Origin: Ceratothoa steindachneri
Taxonomy: Eukaryota > Arthropoda > Malacostraca > Isopoda > Cymothoidae
Reading direction: 5' to 3'
NCBI GenBank assembly: GCA_963969495.1
Contig: OZ018321.1
Location: 102,053,578-102,117,577 of the forward strand
DNA length: 64,000 nt
The notes beneath the pieces were generated by a model, which had not been told where the DNA came from, did not search any database, and saw nothing but the letters and a program-made list of their open reading frames with translations. Both the position numbers and the translations under genes were made by a program. Every line of letters starts with the position of its first letter. The first letter of the stretch is position 1. Shown here in pieces: positions 4,150-52,247 of the stretch.

Positions 4150-6910
4150 AGTCCTACAGTCTGGGACTCACTCAAGGTTCTTCTGTTTAAAGCGAGGTCT
4201 ATCAGAAACAAGTTCCTTGAACTTCGTGGCCTCGTAGCAACAGAAGAACCTGAGATTGTGGCCATAACGGAATGGTAGATAAAAACCTCAAGCCGAGATT
4301 TTGAAGGTGAATTCACGATTCCCGGTTACCAGCTCTTTCTGAACGATAGACCAGACAGAGAGGGTGGCGGTGTGATGTTATATGTCAAGGATACTCTCAA
4401 CTCGACATAATACAACATCGTATCCGACCATGAACGACTAGGTGTTAACCTAGAGATAGGTCCTGCCAGATACAGGACCCTGGTGCTTTACAGATCCCCT
4501 GCCGAACTCTTATAACAGGACAGGAGTCTGTACCAGTTATTGGGCGAACTTGTAAAAGACTGTGTATCATCATAGGGGATTCCAACACACAAGTTAACTG
4601 GGAAACCAGAGAACCCTTTGGTAAGATCGCACTACTTCTGGAGTTCGGGAACAACAAGTTCCTGACTCAATGGTTGGTATAGCCAACGAAAGGAGACAAT
4701 ATCCTCGACTTGGTTTTCACCTCTGAGGATTACATCGTTGAGGACCTCCCTGTTGGCGAAGAACTCGGTGGCAGTGACCACCGACTAATTAGATTTGTAG
4801 TCAAAGTCCCGAAGGCAGGGCCTGCAACTAGTAAATCGAGGAAACTTGATTTGAGAAGAGCAGACTTTGCAGGTCTTCTTGCTGGACTGACTGACGCGAA
4901 GCTAGAAGTGTGCAAGGCTATTGAAGACTCGTGGCACAGTTTCAAATCCACATTCATGAATCTTGAAACGCGTTTCATCCATCTGAAGTGCTCCCGTCGG
5001 TCTTTTGTTGAACCAAAGTGGTATAATCGAGCAATCGGCCAACTGCTTAGGGAGAATAGAACTGTGTACTGGCAATCGAAGATCTCGGGTGACTTTGACG
5101 AATAGCGGAGGCTATCCAGGAGAGTGAAGTCCTGCATAAGGGCAGCTAAGCGGTCTGAGGAACTTCTGTTGGCGAGACTTTGTAAAGAGAATCCCAAGGA
5201 GTTCTTTGGATATGTAAATAGCCTAAACCAATCCGTCGAAGGATTGGCTCTTTGAGGAATGAGGAGGGGAAATTAAAGCACTCAGATGCAGAAAATACCA
5301 ACCTCCTCAACGACTACTTCTCTTTAGTGTTTACTGTATAGTGTGGTTCCATCCCCCACCTAACGGATTCCTACTCGGGGGAAAAGTTATAGGATAGGGA
5401 CTTCACCCAAGGAGAAATAAAAAGGAATATCACTGACCTAATGACGAATAAGTCACCTGACCCGGATGGGTTCCTACCTAAAGTGTTAAAAGAAGTGCGC
5501 GATGAAGTGTGACGACACCTAAGCGCAATCTTAAACATGTCAATCCGGACCGAATGCGTTCCTAGAGACTGGAATCAAGCGGAGGTGACTCCTATCTTCA
5601 AGAAAGGAGACCGTAGCTAACCGTCGAACTACCTACCTATCAGTCTGACTTTGATAGTCTGTAAACTCATGGGAAGCATCATGGTGGAAAAAATGACGTC
5701 GCATTTAGAGTTAAAGCTGCTACTGAGGAGTTCCCAGCACGGCTTCCGAGGGCAACGGTCATGCCTGATGAACCTTGTGGAATTCTTCCACTTCGTCTTC
5801 AGTGAGCACGATCGGGACAAGGCGGTGGATGTGGTCTACTTAGACTTTTCGAAAGCCTTTGATAAGGTACTACACCGCCTCCTTCTCCAGAAAGTGCGAG
5901 CGCTGGGCATATATGGAAAAGTAGCAGGCTGGATAGAGAAGTGGCTAAATGGCTGACGGCAACGGGTGGTGCTGAATGGACAGGCTTCTGAGTGGGTGCC
6001 CTTTACTAGCGGGTTGCCTCAAGGTTCTGTCTTGGGACCACTATTATTTATCATCTACGTCAACGACATGGACGGTGACATGATGGCCAATATTTCTAAA
6101 TTTGCCGACAATACGAAGCTTGGTATGAACGTTGCAAAGTATGGAAATACTGCCCGTCTACAAAATGATCTTCGGATGATTGGGGAGTGGTCGGATACGT
6201 GGCAAATGCCTTTTAACGTAAAGAAATTTCAAGTGATGCATATTGGTCACCGAAATAGCCGATAATCCTATATTCCTAAGGGCACTGCTCCTGAACTCAC
6301 CGAAACTCAGAAGGACTTGGGTGTAACTATCACCAGTGACCTCAAGTTTCTGAAACAGTGTATTGAGGTGGAGAAGAAAGCCCAAAGGATGTTAGGGTAT
6401 ATAAAGCGACAGTTTGTATATCGAAACAAGGAGATAGTACTGTGTCTGTACAACTCCCTCGTCCGATCGCACAAAGAGTATGCCGTACAATTCTGGAGTC
6501 CTTCATTTCGAAAGGACATCGCGAGATTGGAACGCATGCAAGCCAGGGCAACCAAACTGATTCCCTCTATCAGACGTAAAAGTTATGAAGATAGATTAAG
6601 GGAATTAGATCTGTTCTCGTTTGAAACCCGTAGAGTGCGTGCTCAGCTCATGGAAGTTTTCAAAATACTTCGAGGGTTTGACAATGCTGACTACAGGGAT
6701 ATTTTCACACTTGCTGAGAGCAGAACAAGAAATCACGGCTTTAAACTTGAACTGAAGCGTTACAACCGCGATCTGTTTGGAAAAATTTTCACGTACAGTA
6801 TCTACGGTAGTTGGAACGCACTTCCGGTGGAAGTTGTCAACAGTGAATCTGTTGACCAGTTCAAGTCAAGACTAGACAGGGTCTTGAAAAGTGGCCGTTT
6901 AAGGACGTAA
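4150..6910 (+). pseudogene. CR1-like ORF2: endonuclease and reverse transcriptase remnant
   Basis: The endonuclease domain spans about 4,190-4,810 and is interrupted by several stops. Its GGGVMLYVKD segment (near 4,365) and GSDHRLIRF motif (near 4,775) are clear. The RT domain spans about 5,400-6,265, with the palm A motif SKAFDKV (near 5,850), the B motif GLPQGSVLGPLLF (near 6,015) and the C motif reading FADNTKLG (near 6,102), where the usual FADD has lost its second Asp to Asn. The C-terminal part, 6,317-6,910, is the longest open piece (197 codons) and includes the LERMQARATKLI segment usual in this group. Stops, a frameshift and the FADN change make it non-functional. Assignment to CR1 in the wide sense (CR1, L2 and relatives) is from family knowledge; the exact clade is not determined. 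Confidence 0.8.
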
Positions 6911-18171: not shown

Positions 18172-18710
18172 AACAAGGTCTCCTGACCAAAAAGTCGCTT
18201 GCTCTCACTTATTCTGATATATGACCTTACGACCTTCAAAACTTTCAAAAATTCACAGACTAACCTTGGGAAGACCTCAGCAATTCTATCATTAGAAAGG
18301 GAATGTAGAACAACATAAGGATTTCAAATTTCGTTAGAATCGGCTAAATTGTTATGATGTTATTGCCAAAACAAAATAATTTACGGATTAACCTTGGGAA
18401 GACTTTGGTAATTATATCATTAGAAAGAGAATGTAAAACAACATAATGGTTTCAAATTTCGTTCAAATGGGTCCAATAGTTATGATTTTATGGCCAAACA
18501 AAATAATTCCTGGGCTAACCTTGGGCGAACTTTCGCAATTATATCATTCGAAAGGGAATTTGAAACAACATAAGCTTTTCAAATTTTGTTAGAATCGGTC
18601 TAATAGTTACAATGTTATTACAAAACTAAAAAAAGCAAAACGGGGACCGACCGACATAATGAGATGTAGAGTAGCCTGCGTTTAGACTCGCACGCGACGA
18701 AAAACTTGTT
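18172..18710 (-). mobile_element. MITE-like repeat family, copy 1 (inserted in the hAT gene)
   Basis: One end reads aacaaggtctcctgaccaaa then aagtcgcttgctctcact. The other ends in cgcacgcgac then gaaaaacttgtt, so AACAAG and GTCGCGTGC-type sequences face each other as inverted termini. The interior holds three about 127-bp tandem units, each starting near gattaaccttgggaagac and ending near aatagttatgatgttatt. Other copies lie at 47.42, 51.74 and 61.26 kb, the last two in opposite orientation. It lies within the hAT transposase gene, just downstream of the BED-finger piece. Confidence 0.7.
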
Positions 18711-24253: not shown

Positions 24254-24730
24254 TCAGAGAGCTGCCCGTATTCCTACCAAAAAATAGGTGTGAGGAAGAG
24301 CGAAACGCTGGTCTGGTCGCCAAATCCTTGCGGACTGTTTGGCGCCCTCATTGGCGGGCTCATTTCCCGCAATTCCTAAATGTCCAGGAACCCAGCAGAA
24401 GATAATTTCGTCATCCGCCCTGCTCGCCAAAACCGCGGGATCAAGGATATCGAGAACTAAGGGATGCGGAGATTCCAATGCTCTGAGAGCAGTCGGGGCG
24501 CTTTGTGAGTCGCTATAAATCACCATCTGGTCTCCCAACCGGGAACGTCGCGTTATCTCCCATAACGAGCGGTGTATTGCAACCAGCTTGGCCGTGAAGA
24601 CAGACGCAGCGCCTGGTAGAGCCACGCTGACTTCAAACTGGGTGGATATGGCGTGGAAAACGAGGCCTTCTTGGGACTTGGAGCCATCCGTATACACTAG
24701 CACGCTTCCAGCGTGACACGAAGTGTGCTG
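24254..24730 (-). pseudogene. Jockey-like ORF2: RNase H domain
   Basis: A 150-codon open piece carries the RNase H motifs in order: VYTDGSKS (first catalytic Asp), an ELxAI-type segment with KLVAIHRSLW where the usual Glu is replaced by Lys, YSDSQSA (third acidic residue), and CWVPGHLGIAGNEPANEGA (His and final acidic motif, with the Asp of the usual NExAD replaced by Asn). The fold signature is clear but two acidic positions have changed. RNase H at the C-terminus is found in Jockey/I/R1-type LINEs. Confidence 0.8.
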
Positions 24731-25299
24731 ATAAAAGCGCTTAAAAGCAATACTCCCAGCGCTTTAGAAGCTTTGGGAGCAGAGGCGTGGTGACAAATAG
24801 TTGAAGGTGGTACCGTCTAGGGGGCGTCCTGGGCATAACGAAGGGCGCCACCGGCCCGAGAGCTATACCTAGCTCTCGAAGGGGTTTCCTATTCCTAAAC
24901 CAAAGGGCTTAGAATATGACGCTCGGTGGTATAGCCATCGTCGAGATCAGCTCCGGATGCAGTGAGAGCTGTTGGCAAACCAGGCAGGAGCCGGGCTCGC
25001 GCGTACAGGCGAATAATCTACTGTGCATGGCACAGCGCAAGTGAAATCTCCCCAGCATCGACTAGTAGGCTCTCAATGGGAGAAGCGCAGAAGGCAGAAG
25101 TCACCAGGCAAAGGCCAGTATGGTGGATCGAGACCACCTTCCGCAATGCACGCTCGGCTGCGGATGCATAAAACTCGCATCCGCAGTAGAGCTTGGAACG
25201 AACAAAGGATCACTAGAAAAGTAAGGCAGTAGTCCTGTCAGCGCCCCAGCGCTGAACGTTATGGAACGAAGAATATCCACAGTGCAATGCATGTTGGAG

Positions 25300-27689: not shown

Positions 27690-27981
27690 TCTATTAACAA
27701 AAGAACAAAAGTACAAAGAAAATTTCAGCAATAAATCGAAGTAAAATTTCATTGGTTTAGATGGCAGGTGGTTCTTTCTTTGAAGACCTGCGAAGGATTA
27801 TCCATGAACTGCGTGAAGAGCAATGTCAAGTTTAGTAGAGGAAGCGTTATGGTGCTGTGCATATTTTGGGGTGAAGCAACTGCTAAATTTATTCATTGAA
27901 GGGTAGAAAGAGTGAATGCTTAACTGTACAAAAATCTTACGCCCACGCAGTCTTTGTCCCATATGGAAGCCGCAATTTCCC
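27690..27981 (+). pseudogene. Tc1-like transposase, 5' part (split by the LTR element)
   Basis: The plus strand shows GSVMVLCIFWGE (canonical GGSVMVWGCFS) near 27,841, followed in a shifted frame by LFIEG and LNCTKILRPR segments matching the block after it in Tc1-like enzymes. The reading stops exactly where the 5' LTR begins and resumes after the 3' LTR at 36,800. Several stops are present. Confidence 0.6.
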
Positions 27982-28792
27982 TGTGGTGGAGCGAATGTGA
28001 GTGTGTATGAAGGACCATTCTCCCACCCCTTTTTCCAATACCTTTTCCCTCCCTCTGTAAGAATGTGTATGTGAGTAGGAATGGGTTTTTTATTATATTT
28101 TCTTTTGTACATATGTATTTGATTTCATGTTGTATAAAAAGGTTATTTAACATCTCATGTTTTTTCTTTAAATTAGCTACTAAATGTTAAATATTTTTCT
28201 GAGACAGCACTCAAGTAAAGGAATAAATAAACATTGCCTGCATTTTGTAAGAGCGACTGGAATAAAACATTTTGAAGAAATTTAAATAAAATTTAAGAAG
28301 TCTTCTAATAGTAGTTGATTGCGGAGGGCTTTAATAGCCTAAAGAAGTGAGTGGATCTAGACGAAAACTAGCTCGGAGGCGCCAGGCCCCATCAGACGCG
28401 CACACCCAATTTTTGTCACAAGAGTGATTGCTGGCAAGATTTTACCCGTGGGAGCGGGCAAATCTTAGACCGTGGTACCAGGTAAAATAACTCCTCTTTT
28501 TGTTGTCTCTTGTCTTTTTGTTGTCCCTTCTTTTTGTATTTTCTGTCTCTTAGTATTAATATATATATTTTTGATTGATAGGGTTCCAGGATAGGATTAT
28601 TTTAGCTATATATATAAATAAGCTCATTGTGTGCATATTTACCCATATTTTTGTAAATATTGTTGTATTTTTTTGTTAGTAAAGGACTGTACATACAATC
28701 CGTTTCATTCTCCTTCGATTTATTACGTCCTGATTATTGTAGGAAGCTGGTTGGATCGATTGGGGTTAGGTGTAGATTTTCGGCCCGCTACA
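27982..28792 (+). repeat. 5' LTR, 811 bp
   Basis: Begins TGTGGTGGAGCG and ends CCCGCTACA. Aligned with 35,964-36,799, it differs by roughly ten changes in the first 480 bases. A TATA box (TATAAAAA, 28,133-28,140) and AATAAA signals (28,222 and 28,262) mark promoter and polyadenylation functions. The 3' LTR is longer mainly because of an expanded AT tract. Confidence 0.92.
28133..28140 (+). promoter_or_regulatory. TATA box of the 5' LTR
   Basis: TATAAAAA followed by GG, preserved in both LTRs and placed in the first fifth of the LTR, with AATAAA about 90 bases downstream. A likely U3 promoter element, inferred from sequence only. Confidence 0.5.
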
Positions 28793-28794
28793 TT

Positions 28795-28811
28795 TGGTCC
28801 CGAATAGGGAC
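28795..28811 (+). promoter_or_regulatory. Primer binding site, tRNA-Lys-like
   Basis: Two bases after the LTR terminus the sequence reads TGGTCCCGAATAGGGAC. It matches the classic tRNA-Lys(UUU) primer site TGGCGCCCGAACAGGGAC except for the CG-to-T change after TGG and one C-to-T change, so tRNA-Lys is the probable minus-strand primer. The site is also self-complementary (GTCCC/GGGAC). Confidence 0.6.
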
Positions 28812-28926
28812 GTTTTACCTCGAAACTGGGAGCGTGATGGGATGGATTGCAGTCCATACCCAATTAGAGTAATAGGTAGTTTGGTTGTTTTTCGCCTTTG
28901 TCTATCACTGTTACTAACCTAGGAGG

Positions 28927-30600
28927 ATGGTTTCTGTCGAACAGGGCCTCGATGATGAGATCGTGAGACTGAGGCTGGAATCAAGGCAGAAAGAGGAGAA
29001 ATGTATGATGTTGAGGAGCGTGATTGATGGATTGAAGAGTGATGTGATGAGTATGGATGAGAAGACAGACAGGATGAGGAAAGAAATGGACGAGAGACAG
29101 AAGCAGGTCGACCAACAGATAAGGGACTTAAATGACATGATGAAGGAGTCAGGACCGGTCTTAAGACCCTTGACCTTGACCCCTGCTCCAACTAAAGGGG
29201 ATAAGACTAATGGGATCAATGGGAGTGCGTAGGAGTCTAGAGAGGATAGGGTGATTATGAGTGATAGGAAGGACGGAAAATGGAAGAGAGTTGAACGCAA
29301 GAGAAGAAAGAAGACTGGTTCAAAGGGGAAGGATAGGAAGGTAAGAGGCAAGAGTGTAGACTCATTGTACTCGGATGAAGAAGAGAGTGATGGTATGATT
29401 GGTATGAGTGAGAGTGAAGGCAGCTCAAGTGAGAGTGAAGTGAATGTGGGAAAGGGTATTTTGATAAGGGAAGTTCCAAAGGTAGATAGGTTTAGGTTAC
29501 ATGGTGGGAAAAGTGTGAAAGAATTCTTCAGGGAATTCGAGCGATATTGTAAGCTCAAGTACCTGGAGAAGAGGGGATATTGAATTAATGTTTTGGGGAA
29601 ATGTTTGGAGGGAAAGGTATTGGAGTTTTTCCGTGTGATTACAAGCGTAAGGACACCGAGGTACAATGATGTGAAGGAGAGATTGATTGGGCAGATGAAA
29701 CGAATGAAAGAGAGTGTGAAGTATAAAAGAGTGAATTAATTTGAGGAGGCTCAAATGGGGAAGAGTGAAAGTGTGAACATGTATGCACATAGGCTTGAGA
29801 GTATGGCGAGAAAGAGGTATCGTGATGATGATGTAAATGAATGTAAATCACTGATGAGGAAGTTTCTGGACACGATCCCGTAAAAAGTGAGTGAATAGAT
29901 GAGTGGTAATAGAAAGGAGAGAATGAGACTGACAGGTGAACGGTCGATGTAGGAGGATGTGTTGGAGCTGTTGAAAGATGGACGATTTCATGATGAAAGC
30001 GATCTAGAAGAGGATGTATGGTACAGTGTGAATGTTGGGGGTAAAAAGCCCAGGAGCTTTCATCCACCCCAGAAGTTTGTCAGCTACAGGGATGCCCTGA
30101 AGGCTGCGCCAGCTGGAGTGATGTCGAACTTTCTTGGCCAGCAGAATGGATAGGTAAATGGAGGGTGGTCGAATGGAAGGGGGCAGATGAATTTCAAGCG
30201 TGGGAACGGATATATAAGAGAGAAACCGAGCTATGCCTCAGCAAATGAGGGACCGAATGGTGGGAGAAAGATTGTGGAATGTCGTCAGTGTGGAAGGAAA
30301 GGTAATATATTGGCAGAATTTAGGTGGGCGTCTGGTGCATGTTTTAGGTGTGGTAAGAAAGAGCATATGATAAAGGATTGCCAGGAAAGTGGAAAAGAGT
30401 GCTTCGAGTGTAAGGAAATAGGCCATTTGAAGAAAGATTGTCCGAAGTTAAATGGTTGAGTAACTGCTGGGGAAAGTATAAAATATGCATGTGGTAATTG
30501 TGGAAAGGCTGGTGATATGCAAGAATGTGTCGTGACCAGAGAAATGTATGTAGCTTTTGTGCGATGGAAGGACATTCAAGTAAAAAGTGTTGAATTAGAC
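28927..30600 (+). pseudogene. gag of the LTR element: coiled coil and zinc knuckles
   Basis: All recognisable gag sequence from the ATG at 28,927 to 30,459 stays in one frame, broken only by stop codons (for example at 29,230, 29,581, 30,151 and 30,460). The first 75 residues are highly charged with heptad character, suggesting a coiled coil. A Lys/Arg-rich linker follows. The central part (about 29,480-29,950) holds the retrotransposon capsid-like region. Two CCHC knuckles of the form C-x2-C-x4-H-x4-C stand out: CFRCGKKEHMIKDC and CFECKEIGHLKKDC (30,340-30,445), preceded by a degenerate one (CRQCGRKGN). Traces of another knuckle lie at 30,490-30,600. Gag would form the particle and bind RNA. 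Confidence 0.85.
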
Positions 30601-30729
30601 TGAGAGCGCAAGGTGTGAATGGAAAGTCTGAAGCGGGAAACTGATTTGTAAGAGGGTACATGCTGAAGTATCCTCTGGGTGCATGAGTGTGAGTAATGTG
30701 TTGGTAAGTCTGTCTAGTGTGAAAGTGCT

Positions 30730-31112
30730 GTCTAGGAGGAAGTATGAGTGTCTGAGTGTGAAGGTGGAATTGAATGGAATTGAGTGTTTGGCTTTAATAG
30801 ATTCTGGATGAAAGTCAAGCTTGGTGTATAAAGATGTGTATGACAAGGTTAGCGAGAAAGCCCTTCTGTCTGAGTGCAAGGGTAGTTTGGTAGGTATTGG
30901 TAATAGAAGAGCGCCTCTGATTGGAATGATAAGGTCACCTGTTCGAATGCATGGTATGTTGATGAATGAATGTGAATTTTCTGTGATTGATAAGGTGAGT
31001 AGTGAGTATAGTGTGATTTTAGGGTATGATTTTATAAAAATGAATCATATGGTTGTGCATCCTGCGAGTAATCAGATTGAGAGAAAGATTGGTAAAAAAT
31101 GGGGTGTATAAG
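30730..31112 (+). pseudogene. First retropepsin-like protease domain of pol
   Basis: The plus strand reads CLALIDSG at 30,785-30,808, the D-(S/T)-G catalytic motif of retroviral-type aspartic proteases, immediately followed by a TGA stop. The sequence continues with SSLVYKDVY and ends with VILGYDFI near 31,013, the hydrophobic-hydrophobic-G motif that completes the active-site scaffold. The catalytic triad is intact, but the stop after it breaks the frame. This is the standard gypsy position, between gag and RT. Confidence 0.8.
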
Positions 31113-31539
31113 TTGTATGTAGGGAAAGATGGTAGCGTTTTGAGGAGTGTGTTTACTGGTATTAAGGTGACTGCTATGGAGAATGTAAGGCTTGTGAAGG
31201 GTGAAAGGGTGTCTGTTAGAGTGAGTTGGAGTAAGGATGTTAGTTTGAATGTGGGTAAGAACACTGTGATTTTGGATGGATAGGATGCGTGTTATAAAGG
31301 TAAGGCGTGTTGCTGGTGTGTTTGATGGCTTGATGAGTATGAAGGATCCTTTTCTATGTGTGCAGGCGGACCCCAGGGTGAAAGGACAGGTGAGGAGTAT
31401 CCAAGTCAGAGATGTACTGGGTCACCTCTTCACTGTCAATGAGGTAGGTATGGATGATAGCACGGATGTCAGGGTCAATGTTGCAGGTGAAAAGACGTCT
31501 GGATGGACGTATAATGGTTGAATTGGATGGATGTTTGAC

Positions 31540-32990
31540 TGAGTATGAAAGGGAGGATGTGTATCGAATGATATTTGAACGAAAGGGGGCCCTCAGTAAG
31601 GGTGATCTAGATTTTGGGGTTGCAAAGCTTCCGGAATTCAAAATTGTCCTAAAGGCGGAGTCCCCAATCTATCAGCGGCCGAGGTATTTCCCACGTCCGG
31701 TTGCTGATGAGATTAAGCAGCAGTGTTTGGAATTAGAGAAATTGTGGGTAATTGAAGAAAACAAGAGTGCATGGAATAGTCCAATTGTGCCTGTACGTAT
31801 GCCGGATGTAAGATTTCGTGTGTGTGGATTATCGAAAGGTGAATGAAAGGACTGTGAAAGAAAGGTTTCCGATGTTTGTGGTATCTGAGTGTGTGTATAG
31901 TATGCATGGGATGGAGTGGTTTACGAAGCTGGATCTGGTACGGGGTATTATTAGATGCCCATTGCTGAGGAGAGCGTGCCGGTAACTGCCTTCTCTTCAA
32001 CAAAGAGGCATTACCAGTTCCGGAACCTCAGCTTTGGGTTGGCTAATGCTCCCGGAGCCTTCCAGCGTGCAATGAATGTTGTGTTGAGTAAGTTTGCAAG
32101 TAAGAATGTGATTGCGTTTATAAATGATATTTTGATTATGACAGAGACTTTTGAGGAGCATATGAGATTGGTTTATGATGTGGTGAGAGCGTTGGAGAGT
32201 GTTGGTTTGGAAGTGAAAGTGGTGAAGTGTGAATGGTTTGCGAAAGAAGTGGAATACCTTGGGCATATGGTGAGTGAGAATGGTTACGAAATTCGCCGAA
32301 GTATTTGGAGAAAGTGCGAATGTTTTTGAAACCAGTGACTGTGAAGCAACTGAAGTCGTTTTGGGGTTTGATTGAGTTCCAGCGAAAGTTTATACGTGAT
32401 TGTTCTGGTGTGAGTAAGCCTCTGACTGAGTGGATGGGCAAGAAAGGTAGTAAATTTGTCAGGTGGAATGATAAGATGTATGAGGCTTATGAGAACCTAA
32501 AAGAGGCAGCGGCTCAAGATCTTCGAATTGGCGTATCCAGATTATAGTTTGAATGCTAAAATGCTTGAATTGTATACAGATGCGAGTGGGTATTGTATGA
32601 GAGGTTTTCTGATGCAAGAGCAGCGTTTGAACGGAGAGAATATCAGGCGAATAATTGGGTATGTATCCAAGTCTATGAATGTTGCAGAAAGAAAGTATTC
32701 GACTGTGGAGCATGAGTTGGCTGCGATAAGTGCGGCGTCCGTTTTTGTATACTGTGAGGGTTGTGATTAAGACTGACCACCAAACTCTTGTGTATATGCA
32801 GCGTATGAAGTGGGCTGATAGTAGGATTGCGAGGACTTTGAAAAATTTGAGTGACTTTGACTATGTGATTGAGTACGTGCCAGGTGAACGAAATGGAGTG
32901 GCTGATTTGATGTCAAGATATCCTGGTACGAATGATGAAAATGTGTGTGAAGTGATGATCATGAATATTTGCTTAAAGGGATTATGAATG
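31540..32990 (+). pseudogene. Reverse transcriptase and RNase H of pol
   Basis: RT begins around 31,590. YQRPRYFPRP and SAWNSPIVPV are followed by a frameshift before the YRKVNERT segment, then FTKLDLVRGYY (palm A, 31,920-31,950), FGLANAPGAFQRAMN (palm B) and FINDILIM (palm C, near 32,119), where the canonical Y-(L/I)-D-D reads F-I-N-D, losing one catalytic Asp. VEYLGHMVSENG follows. RNase H runs 32,560-32,930 with LYTDASG, ERKYSTVEHELAAI and KTDHQTL, covering its acidic residues, and ends with YVPGERNGVADLMSR. At least four frame changes occur between 31,276 and 32,730. The order and wording are typical of Ty3/gypsy. Confidence 0.9.
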
Positions 32991-33000
32991 GAAAGGAGAG

Positions 33001-33474
33001 TTAGGGGGTGGTGATTCCTTGTTTGAGAGAGTATGGAATGGTTTGCAAGATTTAAAGAGTGATGGAGTAGATGTGAGAGTGCCCGATAGTGTGGATGACT
33101 TAAGGAAAGAGGTAATGAGTGAAGTATTTAGGAAGCCTGAAAGCATTGGTATGGAAAAGGTGAGGAACTTCACGAAATAATTGAGAGCGATGTGTATACA
33201 AGGGATCCCGCCATTTCAGGAAGTGTTGGTTGTAGTGAGTCGTTTGTATGGAGTGATTGTTTATGTTCACTTTGGTGGTGAGAGGCTGATTGTGTACAAA
33301 GATGAGAAGATTAAGGGTTTGAATGCTTGTGTGGTGCATCTGCAGTGTTTGAGTGGTGTGCACTACAATTGGTTAATTCAAAAGTGTTCATATATGAGAG
33401 AGAAGAATGATTGTGTACATGAATATGAGTGCGTGGTGAGTGATAATGTGGGAGTTGATAACAGTGTGGATTAA
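33001..33474 (+). pseudogene. OTU-like cysteine-protease domain between RNase H and integrase
   Basis: One frame is open from 33,001 to 33,474 apart from a single TAA at 33,178. It shows the OTU family signature in order: GGGDSLFERVW at 33,004, corresponding to the D-G-x-C-L-F-x-(A/S) nucleophile block with Ser at the Cys position; DDLRKEVMSEV about 35 residues on (the conserved LR segment); the EVLVVVSRLYGVIVYVH strand-helix segment; and VHLQCLSGVHYNWL, with the HY(N/D) general-base block. The distance between nucleophile position and His is 115 residues, as in OTU domains. In this copy the Ser for Cys change and the stop would inactivate it. In OTU enzymes the domain cleaves ubiquitin or similar linkages; here it might process the polyprotein or counter host ubiquitin-based control, which is inference. 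Confidence 0.65.
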
Positions 33475-33539
33475 GTGCTGATGTTGGTGTGCTTGTTCCT
33501 TCTGTGTATTGCTAACATGGTGGACCTGATATGATGAAA

Positions 33540-33880
33540 GCGAGAGTGAAAGTTGGTTAAAGGTTTTCTGGAGCGCAAGTGTCTTTGGTGAATGAGAGGA
33601 TTTTGAGTAAGTATGATAAATTTAGATGTTGCGAGCATAAACCTGTGAAGTTACGGATAAGTGGATTAGGAAATGGCATGATAGTGGCATGGGAACAGGT
33701 TAGTCTGAAAGTGAGTTTGGGTAATGATGAGAATGTGAAGCATGACTTTGTGATTCTGAAAGATGAGTAAATGCCGCGTTGTTTCTTGCTTGGTGTAGAC
33801 TTTATGAGATTGAATAATTTGTCTTTTGATGCTGATAAGGATTGTCTTATAAAAGGTGGATGTGAGGTGATGAGGTTGTA
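33540..33880 (+). pseudogene. Second retropepsin-like domain before integrase
   Basis: The frame gives SGAQVSLVNERIL at 33,568-33,606, which lines up with the D-(S/T)-G-A-x-(V/I)-S motif but has Phe at the Asp position. A beta-rich stretch follows (KLRISGLGNGM, VSLKVSLG, HDFVILKDE) and then, after a TAA, FLLGVDFMRLNN at 33,783, the (I/L)-(I/L)-G-x-D-(F/Y) motif closing a retropepsin fold. Gypsy elements normally have one protease, upstream of RT; this one lies after the OTU-like domain. The missing Asp and the stops make it inactive in this copy. Confidence 0.5.
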
Positions 33881-33914
33881 GGAGTATGCGAAGAATGTTG
33901 TCAAATTTTGTGGT

Positions 33915-35214
33915 ATGATTGAGTTGGTCATGGATGATGAGAATGAGATTTTAAGTAATGATGATATTCTAGAGATGCAAGAGATGTGTCCTTTTGTCAG
34001 TGAGTTGAAGAGGTGTGTAATGATGCATGTTGATTTAAATACATGGCCTGAGTGTTTAAGTGATTTTAAGAGGTATGCTAAGGATTTTGTTGTTTGTGTG
34101 GATGTTGTATATTTTATGAGGCATGTGAAGGGTGGTGATGATATGTATGTACCTGTGATGGCCTTGGTTGGTATGATTGGTCTGATGAAGGTTGTGCATA
34201 ATTATTATGGGCATATGGGTAAGTTTAAGCTATGGGAGTGTATGAAGGAGTGTGTGTTCCATCCTTTTCTGAGAACTGTTGTGAATGATGTTCGACTACG
34301 TGTGAAAGGTGCCAGAAGCGAAAGGTGCAAGGTGTGCAAGTGAAACCCCTGATGTTGAAAGTTGATGCGAAAGAACCGTTTGAATTGGTAGTGATTGATT
34401 GTGTGTCTTTGCCGAGTACGAGTGCTGGAAATGTTGGTATGGTTGTTATGGTTAATCATAAAAGTAAGTTTGTGTATGCAGCGCCTGTGAGAGATAAAAG
34501 GAGTGTGACTGTTGCGCGTGTGGTTGAGCATTTTTTTCCCCTATGTGTGTATGGAAGCCTAAATGATGTCTGAGTGATAATGGGCCTGAATTTGTAGGAG
34601 AAGTGTTTGAGAAAATGTTGAGAGAGAATGGTGTGGAGCATGTGAGAACGACTTCGTATGTACCATCTTCAAAGGGATCGGCTGAACGTACGATAAGAAC
34701 CCTGTGTGAGATGTTAAGAATGATGAGTACGACAGTGAATGACTGGGATGTATGTATGAGAAGAGTGTTGTGGGCGTATAATTCGACAGTGCATAGTGCA
34801 ACTGGAATGTCGCCGTGTCAGTTTGTGATGAATTTTGAAAGGCGAGTGAAAGATAGGTTTCGTTTGAGTGAAAGTGAGCAGAGTGTATGGCGTGAGGCAC
34901 ATGAAAAGTTCCGTTCATTTGAATTAGGTGCAAAAGTATTGAAGGTGAAAGAAGTGAAGGGTAGGTTGAATGTGTCAAAGATGAGTGAGAAGTTTGATGG
35001 ACCTTATAGAGTTGTGAGAGTTTGGGAAAATGGGGTGACGTATGATTTGGAGAGTTTGAATGACGGTATGACTGAGAGAGTGCGGGCTTATCAGAGTCAG
35101 TTAAGGAGATGGAGAGAACCTCCTGACTACCTGGTGAGTCATCCAGAGAGAGAGGTAAAGTGCATGATGTTGAGATTGAATGTGATAGGATGGATCTGTC
35201 TGGAAAAGAGCTAG
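33915..35214 (+). pseudogene. Integrase of the LTR element
   Basis: The N-terminal zinc-binding H-H-C-C domain reads HNYYGH at 34,197 and CKVC at 34,331. The catalytic core carries VVIDCVSLP (first Asp, near 34,394), SDNGPEF (second Asp, near 34,574) and KGSAERTIRTL (Glu). The spacing of the last two is D-35-E, as required. A TGA just before SDNGPEF and frame changes near 34,325 and 34,600 break it. The final open piece of 203 codons (34,603-35,214) covers the end of the core and the C-terminal DNA-binding region, including KFDGPYRVVRVWENGVTYDL. All three catalytic acidic residues survive. Confidence 0.85.
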
Positions 35215-35909
35215 TTTTAGTCTCGAGGAGTAGAAAGCGTACAAAGAAGAGTGAAAGGAAGAATGCAAGTACCAATGAAAGTAAGTCTGAGCAGAGTCTT
35301 TCTGGTATGGGGGAGCTTGAAAGAGAGATTGAGTGTTTGCAAAAACAGGTGAGTGATTTGGCTGGTATAAGTAGACGAGTGAGTGAGCTGCCTGTGCCTG
35401 ATTTTTCTGGTTTTGGGAACAGTATAAATGATAGTGTGTTTGGGCAGAATGAACCTAGTGTGCCTGATTTTTCGGGTTTTATGAATGGTAATAGTAGGAG
35501 TGAGTTTGATGTAGTGAATGATGAAGTTGCTGATTTTTTAGGTTTCTGGTGGGAACCAGTCGAAGGGGTTTCTGGTATTCCTGTTGAGAATACAGGGGAT
35601 GTGAGTGACCCCTCTGTTTCGCAGGAGTGTGCTTTGAGTGTGATGAGGGCTGTGAGTGAGGAGCTGATGAATGGGGGTATGAATAGTGAAGGTTCTGAAC
35701 GGAAGAGTATGAAAGAGATTTGTCGTGAAATGGGAGAACTGGTAATGAGGGCTAAAAGTATGGTGGACGATATGATCAATAGTGACGATGAGACTGACAA
35801 GACGACTGATGAAAAAACCCGACTGATTGCTACGCGTAGCCAGGGACCAGTAGACGAGTGTGAATGGGTGCAGAAGGGTGCGATTGAGTATAAAAGATAC
35901 CGTGAGTGA
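35160..35909 (+). CDS. 3' ORF of the LTR element, function unknown
   Basis: A 249-codon open frame overlapping the end of the integrase frame by 55 bases. It is the longest uninterrupted plus-strand frame in the element. The start is Lys/Arg-rich (SRKRTKKSERK). The middle has a repeated PDFSGF motif (twice, plus a variant ADFLGF), each followed by polar linkers. The end is acidic, with DSDDETDKTTDEK-like composition. No signal peptide, membrane segment or furin-type site suggests an envelope protein. It could be a C-terminal extension of pol reached through a frameshift, or a separate accessory protein. A host-like start signal cannot be judged. Confidence 0.55.
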   Translation: MHDVEIECDRMDLSGKELVLVSRSRKRTKKSERKNASTNESKSEQSLSGMGELEREIECLQKQVSDLAGISRRVSELPVPDFSGFGNSINDSVFGQNEPSVPDFSGFMNGNSRSEFDVVNDEVADFLGFWWEPVEGVSGIPVENTGDVSDPSVSQECALSVMRAVSEELMNGGMNSEGSERKSMKEICREMGELVMRAKSMVDDMINSDDETDKTTDEKTRLIATRSQGPVDECEWVQKGAIEYKRYRE

Positions 35910-35950
35910 GGATTGAGAGTGTATTGTGAGTGACTGTGGTCGAATGGCTT

Positions 35951-35963
35951 AAGGAAAGAGGGG
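35951..35963 (+). promoter_or_regulatory. Polypurine tract
   Basis: AAGGAAAGAGGGG sits directly before the TGTGG start of the 3' LTR, the position of the plus-strand primer in LTR elements. Confidence 0.85.
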
Positions 35964-36591
35964 TGTGGTGAAGCGAATGTGAGTGTGTACGAAGGGCCAT
36001 TCTCCCACCCCTTTTCCCAATACCTTTTCCCTCCCTCTGTAAGAATGTGTGTGTGAGTAGGAATGGGTTTTTTATTATATTTTCTTTTGTACATATGTAT
36101 TTGATTTCATGTTGTATAAAAAGGTTATTTAACATCTCATGTTTTTTCTTTAAATTAGCTACTAAATGTTAAATATTTTTCTGAGACAGCACTCAAGTAA
36201 AGGAATAAATACACATTGCCTGCATTTTGTAAGAGCGACTGGAATAAAACATTTTGAAGAAATTTAAATAAAATTTAAGAAGTCTTCTAATAGTCGTTGA
36301 TTGCGGAGGGCTTTAATAGCCTAAAGAAGTGAGTGGATCTGGACGAAAACTGAGCTCGGAGGCGCCAGGCCCCATCAGACGCGCACTCCCAATTTTTGTC
36401 ACAAGAGTGATTGCTGGCAAGATTTTACCCGTGGGAGCCGGCAAATCATCGTAAACCGTGGTACCAGGTAAAATAACTCCTCTTTTTGTTGTCTCGTGTC
36501 TTTTTGTTGTCCCTTCTTTTTGTATTTGCTGTCTCTTAGTATTAATATATATATTTTTGATTGATAGGGTTCCAAGATAGGATTGTTTTAG

Positions 36592-36645
<54 letters not shown>

Positions 36646-36799
36646 GCTCATTGTGTGTATATTTACCCATATTTTTGTAAATATTATTGTAATTTCTTTT
36701 GTACATACAATGCGCTTCATTCTCCTTCGATTTCTCACGTCCAGATTAGTGTAGGAAGCTGGTTGGATTGGGGTTAGTCTAGATTTTTGACCCGCTACA
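35964..36799 (+). repeat. 3' LTR, 836 bp
   Basis: Begins TGTGGTGAAGCG and ends CCCGCTACA. It is nearly identical to the 5' LTR except for scattered substitutions, a one-base insertion in gaaaactgagctc, and an AT tract near 36,594-36,640 that is longer than in the 5' copy. Confidence 0.92.
36594..36640. repeat. (AT)n tract inside the 3' LTR
   Basis: About 46 bases of AT dinucleotides. The equivalent place in the 5' LTR has only tatatatata, so the expansion came after insertion. Confidence 0.9.
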
Positions 36800-51737: not shown

Positions 51738-52247
51738 AGTCGCGTGCGACTCTATCTCTCATGATGTTGGTCAGTCGTCGGGCGCTTCGTCGGTCCCCGT
51801 TTTTTTTTTTTTATTGTTTTGGTAATAAAATTGTAAGTATTGGCCCGATTCTAACAAAATTTGAAACACTTATGTTTATTTCCATTATCTTTTGAATGAT
51901 ATAATTTCCAAGGTCCTCCCAACTATAGCCCAGGTTTTTTTTCTTTTGGCAATAGCATCATAACTATTCGGCCGATTCTAACTAAATTTGAAACCCTCAT
52001 GTTATTATACATTTTATTTTGAATTATATAATTGCCAAAGTCCTACCAAGGTTAGTCTAGGAATTATTTGGTAATAATATCATAACTATTTGGCTGATTC
52101 TATCCAAATTTGTAACCTTATGTTGTTTTACATTCGCTTTCTAAGGTCCTCCCAAGGTTAGGCCACGAATTATTAAGAGTTTTGAAGGTCGTAAAGTCAT
52201 AAATCAGAATAAGTGAGAGCATGCGAATTTGGTCAGTAGACCTTGTT
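51738..52247 (+). mobile_element. MITE-like family, copy 3
   Basis: Starts agtcgcgtgcgactctatct and ends aagtgagagcatgcgaattt then ggtcagtagaccttgtt. Internal units carry ccaaggttagtctaggaatt and ggttaggccacgaatt. Opposite orientation to copy 1. Its right end marks the start of the RT remnant. Confidence 0.78.

Follow-up and report, generated by a model that had tools for sequence, protein, structure and literature searches.

What lies between ribonuclease H (RNase H) and integrase in the pol region of the Ty3/gypsy-like long terminal repeat (LTR) retrotransposon found in this Ceratothoa steindachneri DNA (contig OZ018321.1; the whole stretch of 64,000 nucleotides is called the window below), and what would it do there? 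An earlier note had read the frame at 33,001-33,474 as an OTU cysteine protease domain, with a Ser in place of the Cys in this copy. On the fold predicted from a relative, the domain is a retrotransposon variant of the OTU fold that bears a serine, and not an OTU cysteine protease. We read it as the degenerate form of an OTU-like domain that related Pol proteins carry after RNase H, acting there as a serine-type module that would bind and cut the tail of ubiquitin or of a ubiquitin-like protein, and we give this reading as a whole a probability of about 0.45.

The earlier description of the frame itself was reproduced. Translation of 33,001-33,474 gives the four reported landmarks, GGGDSLFERVW, DDLRKEV, VVSRLYGVIVYVH, and GVHYNWL, in a single frame and in that order. 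The Ser codon at 33,016 and the His codon at 33,361 are 115 codons apart, as had been counted, and there is indeed one internal stop (TAA, 33,178-33,180) before the end stop at 33,472-33,474. The internal stop divides the domain into an N-terminal piece (32,977-33,177, forward strand, with GGGDSLF at 33,004-33,024) and a C-terminal piece (33,181-33,474 with the end stop, forward strand, with HLQCLSGVHYN at 33,337-33,369, in which GVHYN occupies 33,355-33,369). The frame extends upstream to 32,977 and joins the RNase H frame (end at 32,987) through a frame change.

Relatives of the domain were found in other proteins. A protein search with a 165-residue query returned P0001 alone (E 2.9e-25; 14 candidates), and one with the C-terminal piece by itself returned no relatives. 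A profile built from the window and P0001 then gave 13 proteins, P0001 included, from 1,148 candidates. The weakest of these, P0013 (E 0.89 in the profile search), was retained on the strength of its two motifs and a match to Pfam OTU; with P0013 left out and the window included, the serine is found in 8/8 and the histidine in 10/10. DNA-level scans of viral contigs and genome contigs revealed no related locus, and a motif-pattern scan matched the window once and the viral contigs never. Eleven of the 13 relatives were aligned with the window, leaving out P0004, which is without both sites, and P0005, which covers the next stretch only. The ends of P0005 and P0007 resemble translated sequencing adaptor, and P0007 was trimmed before this false tail in the alignment. 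Pairwise identity in the domain ranges from 25 to 67% across 54 pairs, and the C-terminal piece is 53% identical to P0001 over 75 residues. Five of the 13 relatives (P0003, P0007, P0008, P0009, and P0012) have a Pfam RNase H match upstream in the same protein; the order RNase H followed by the OTU-like domain occurs in open frames of other proteins.

A profile of the 11 relatives without the window was run against the 2,032 stop-to-stop frames of at least 20 residues in the window. Both pieces of the domain were recovered, 33,181-33,471 with E 1.1e-25 (87.6 bits) and 32,977-33,177 with E 3e-14 (50.5 bits), while no other window frame scored better than E 0.14 (9.4 bits) and no frame in 20 block-shuffled windows exceeded 10.3 bits; the relatives had themselves been found with the window sequence, so that this match is not an independent discovery.

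The conserved residues decide against a cysteine enzyme. GGGDS is found in all nine sequences that cover the site (the window and eight relatives), and because of this the serine is, on the alignment, in all probability the residue of the family and not damage in the window copy. The earlier note had taken it for a loss of the cysteine in this copy, a view that the internal stop and frame changes of the window would favour, since chance substitutions are expected in such a copy; now that all eight relatives with this position also show Ser, it is very improbable. The note had also named sibling copies without a conserved Cys and His as a finding that would speak against its reading. Among the relatives, the outcome is divided, as the Cys is absent (Ser in 8/8), with which the cysteine-protease reading fails, and the His is kept in 10/10. 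Where OTU enzymes have an Asp at the third position ahead of their cysteine, the family has Gly (9/9), with an Asp directly preceding the Ser, and the Asp-Gly-x-Cys loop that is canonical for OTU cysteine proteases is thus not found in the family (Ser 9/9, Gly 9/9). With neither the Cys nor the Asp of this loop, the domain should not be classed among the OTU cysteine proteases. Other OTU features are present. OTU cysteine proteases have an Asn or Asp two residues after the His; here the His and an Asn two residues after it are found in 11/11 aligned sequences (the window and ten relatives), and the residue between them is always aromatic (Tyr in nine, Phe in two). The Cys of the motif HLQC, at the fifth position ahead of the His, is also invariant (11/11; 33,346-33,348 in the window) and could conceivably serve as a shifted nucleophile.

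Matches to known OTU proteins are individually weak, consistent with each other, and none would be decisive alone. P0001 has a single PDB match up to E 10, and this is OTUD3 (E 0.72). The family profile also has OTUD3 as its best PDB match (E 0.05), in an alignment over the full length that pairs the Ser with the Cys of DGNC and the His with the His; the next nine matches are unrelated (E 0.77 to 1.8). Pfam OTU matches three of the 12 trimmed members, with a best E of 4.6e-4. The structure prediction that the earlier note had proposed as a check did return an OTU fold, for the relative P0010 rather than for the window copy; the top structure matches of this model are OTU proteins, with a shared fold of about 123 residues. 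OTU ancestry of the domain is very likely in our estimate. With OTUD3, OTUD1, OTUD5, and other OTU deubiquitinases (PF02338), the domain shares, besides this predicted fold, the order of nucleophile helix, Leu-Arg helix, strand-helix, and His strand, and the aromatic residue after the His. It differs from them in having Ser for Cys, Gly for the Asp at -3, and Asp at -1, in lying inside a retrotransposon Pol, and in scoring under the Pfam cut-off.

The same structure matches bear on another identity, an SGNH/GDSL esterase domain misread as OTU. The letters GDSL do occur in six of the nine sequences (GDSM in the other three), and rotifer LTR elements have GDSL esterases as open reading frame 3 (ORF3) (PMC5408684). 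The top structure matches of the P0010 model are OTU proteins, however, and 11/11 sequences have Ser or Ala at the third position ahead of the His. In SGNH/GDSL esterases, the catalytic His belongs to a DxxH block, and since the Asp of this block is missing throughout, the esterase identity was rejected and keeps a negligible probability.

What could a serine OTU module do? In the proposed mechanism, the Ser, His, and Asn would form a working triad. Because an aromatic residue follows the His, we infer a site for ubiquitin-type tails, in which this residue would select for a Gly-Gly ending, as it does in known deubiquitinases. Most deubiquitinase families have an aromatic residue right after the His, where it touches Gly-75 of ubiquitin (PMC7391069). 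The target might be ubiquitin on the Gag or Pol of the element itself, or on host factors at replication or integration, and removal of the ubiquitin would spare such targets from degradation. That Ser, His, and Asn are strictly conserved tilts the balance slightly to hydrolysis over binding alone, and hydrolysis by the domain, judged from its residues, is a tentative proposal with somewhat less than an even chance. Serine in place of cysteine has precedents, as a survey of papain-like proteins describes families in which a Ser is conserved, along with two enzymes that remain partly active when their Cys is changed to Ser (PMC10318531). The same survey lists human vertnin as an inactive OTU-like protein.

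Several observations weigh against this reading, some on ancestry and others on activity. The OTU profile search proposed by the earlier note failed on the window domain, with no Pfam OTU match for the two stop-free pieces and none up to E 10 when the whole domain was read with an X in place of the stop, and the PDB matches of the window domain alone are three designed proteins. No member of the family reaches the curated Pfam cut-off, full-length P0013 scoring E 0.0016 with 19.4 of the 23.3 bits. The fold evidence comes from the predicted model of a relative, P0010, and not from the window copy. The family has neither the canonical Cys nor the Asp at -3, and the loss of the Asp speaks for binding over hydrolysis. 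In a tree of the domain built from 11 of the 12 rows (P0011 was omitted as too short), the window groups with P0001, P0002, P0003, and P0007 with strong support (100/99) and the other seven of the eight inner branches are weak. On this mostly unresolved tree, the sequences with Ser may stand for few independent lineages or for many. Finally, CG3251 and Otu, the Drosophila homologues of OTUD4 that have a Ser, did not cleave ubiquitin chains, even after the Ser was changed to Cys (PMC4654579).

A pseudo-deubiquitinase, in which hydrolysis is lost and the domain serves Pol as a module for binding ubiquitin or ubiquitin-like proteins or as a scaffold, is nearly as likely as the serine-type enzyme, while still itself doubtful. 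It would fit the disappearance of the Cys and of the Asp at -3 in 9/9 covering sequences and the in vitro inactivity of the serine-bearing CG3251 and Otu, and pseudo-deubiquitinases are common, making up about 13% of deubiquitinases (PMC10919355). It fits less well with the strict retention of Ser, His, and Asn, which seems to exceed the needs of a binder, and with results from another laboratory, where Otu purified from S2 cells showed deubiquitinase activity in a 2025 paper that also cites an earlier report of the same kind (PMC12263153). The chemistry of serine OTU proteins is thus disputed, Drosophila Otu being inactive in one paper and active in the other. Otu and CG3251 share with the element domain the Ser at the OTU nucleophile position, but they are host genes with a Tudor domain, they keep the Asp (D37) three residues before the Ser that the element family has lost, and their Cys to Ser changes are scattered and recent. 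With its fixed serine, the element family offers a natural setting for the question of whether serine can replace the cysteine of a deubiquitinase.

The position of the domain in Pol agrees with the earlier description, with one addition. An OTU-like domain between RNase H and integrase stands, on the predicted fold of the relative; integrase does not come directly next, as a retropepsin-like stretch that the note had missed intervenes at 33,561-33,878 (forward strand; stop at 33,768; motifs SGAQVSLVN and LLGVDF). In a single BLASTP comparison, this stretch is 31% identical to P0001 over 68 residues (E 8e-14). Five relatives reach it, four with D-T-G (P0001, P0002, P0005, and P0006) and P0011 with D-C-G, and it follows the OTU-like domain in P0001, P0002, P0006, and P0011, P0005 having no OTU-like coverage. 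The window counterpart begins with SGAQVSLVN and has lost the Asp of D-T-G. Pfam RVP is matched by four of six members (best E 0.0013) and gag-asp_proteas by two of six (best E 2.9e-4). The stretch profile has eight PDB matches up to E 10, six to Ddi1 and two to ASPRV1, of which the best has E 0.18 and none is significant by itself. The stretch, with its D-T-G in four of five relatives, resembles the retropepsins of Ddi1 and ASPRV1, which are host proteins. An AlphaFold2 model of P0001 run for this part was poor, with a mean predicted local distance difference test score (pLDDT) of 41. From its motifs and profile matches, the stretch is likely a second retropepsin, and the Pol order would be RNase H, OTU-like domain, second retropepsin, and integrase, with the integrase step taken from the window only.

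With this order, two further proposals arise. The domain could be an internal processing protease that cuts the polyprotein of the element between RNase H and integrase and does not act on ubiquitin. Its place at a Pol domain border, adjoining the retropepsin-like stretch, would suit such a role. Another retropepsin-like region exists upstream (30,776-31,108, forward strand), so a further processing enzyme is not needed, and the aromatic residue after the His suits Gly-Gly tails (PMC7391069); we regard this role as improbable. The upstream region was assigned from its motifs, DSG at 30,800-30,808 followed by a stop and ILGYDF at 31,016; 30,812-31,111 has no Pfam protease match, and the two retropepsin-like regions of the window have no meaningful BLASTP similarity to each other (E 2.9). 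A bolder extension of the serine-type reading is that a Ty3/gypsy-like lineage runs on a serine OTU enzyme together with a second retropepsin, the arrangement RNase H-OTU(Ser)-retropepsin-integrase forming a ubiquitin-directed protease cassette in Pol. Ddi1, a ubiquitin-linked retropepsin, is similar in logic to such a cassette, which we consider unlikely.

OTU domains are known from other mobile elements. Ginger1 DNA transposons also combine an OTU domain and an integrase of Gypsy type (PMC2836005), but they are cut-and-paste elements with terminal inverted repeats and no reverse transcriptase, and their OTU domain is C-terminal to the integrase-like transposase. A Ginger1 identity was ruled out here by the direct LTRs, without terminal inverted repeats, and by the OTU-like domain upstream of integrase. 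Helentrons of animals and some fungi carry an OTU-like cysteine protease in a large mobile-element protein (PMC6431247); these are, in contrast, rolling-circle DNA transposons. The dUTPase of retroviruses and LTR elements is likewise an extra Pol domain, lying between reverse transcriptase and integrase in some retroviruses, but it is an unrelated enzyme and lies between protease and reverse transcriptase in rotifer elements (PMC5408684). Among the matches listed in the open-licence literature (titles, starts of abstracts, and some passages), none reported an OTU domain in the Pol of an LTR retrotransposon, which is weak evidence of novelty. The OTU and Ulp1 domains of DNA transposons have been taken to indicate that transposition involves the ubiquitin pathway (PMC2836005). 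If the domain of the element family works, ubiquitin control would be built into a retrotransposon Pol, and the border of RNase H and integrase would again be a spot where Pol takes on new functions.

The remaining parts of the element were mapped on the forward strand of the window. The 5′ LTR (27,982-28,792) and the 3′ LTR (35,964-36,799) both begin with TG and end with CA, and their alignment of 853 columns contains 762 identities and 59 gap columns. The flanks, TTCCC and GCCCA, have only CCC in common and show no clear target-site duplication. A candidate primer-binding site starting with TGG (28,795-28,812) was assigned by position only, and a polypurine tract adjoins the 3′ LTR (35,951-35,963); both come from reading the sequence. 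Gag zinc knuckles of the CCHC type were mapped to 30,154-30,456 (Pfam zf-CCHC, E 9.2e-11; knuckles at 30,340 and 30,400). The reverse transcriptase lies in pieces at 31,448-32,329, with RVT_1 at E 2.7e-19 for 31,955-32,329 and no Pfam match for the piece 31,448-31,846. RNase H occupies two frames at 32,501-32,987 (RT_RNaseH, E 5.1e-13 and 8.7e-5). The integrase region, also in pieces (33,882-35,214), was recognised from IDCVS at 34,394, SDNGPEF at 34,573, SAERTIR at 34,678, and GPYRV at 34,999, the last being the GPY/F motif of Ty3/gypsy integrases; Pfam rve scored E 0.0071 and 0.01, under the curated cut-off. The TG...CA LTRs and the order protease, reverse transcriptase, RNase H, and integrase are those of Ty3/gypsy elements, the integrase being placed by its motifs and the sub-threshold rve matches. 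Because the coding parts are scattered across all three frames with stops between them, the element copy is dead, and the window copy itself is unable to make the OTU-like protein.

Some further observations were made on the element and the window. An open frame of 260 residues at 35,127-35,909 overlaps the end of the integrase in the position of an ORF3, with a best Pfam match of only E 0.63. Inside the element (27,980-36,780), the strand is rich in G (0.299) and poor in C (0.114), each being about 0.19-0.20 outside, and the GC skew over the element is about 0.4-0.5; this bias could stem from codon usage or from one-sided mutation. In the window, neither Rfam at its gathering thresholds nor a tRNA scan gave matches. 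Other retroelement fragments are present, with RVT_1 at 5,621-5,953 on the forward strand (E 1.6e-10) and RNase H at 24,257-24,763 on the reverse strand (E 1.9e-8). Finally, two tandem arrays at 18,250-18,631 and 51,808-52,134, far apart in the window, both have a period of 127 bases and may represent one satellite family.
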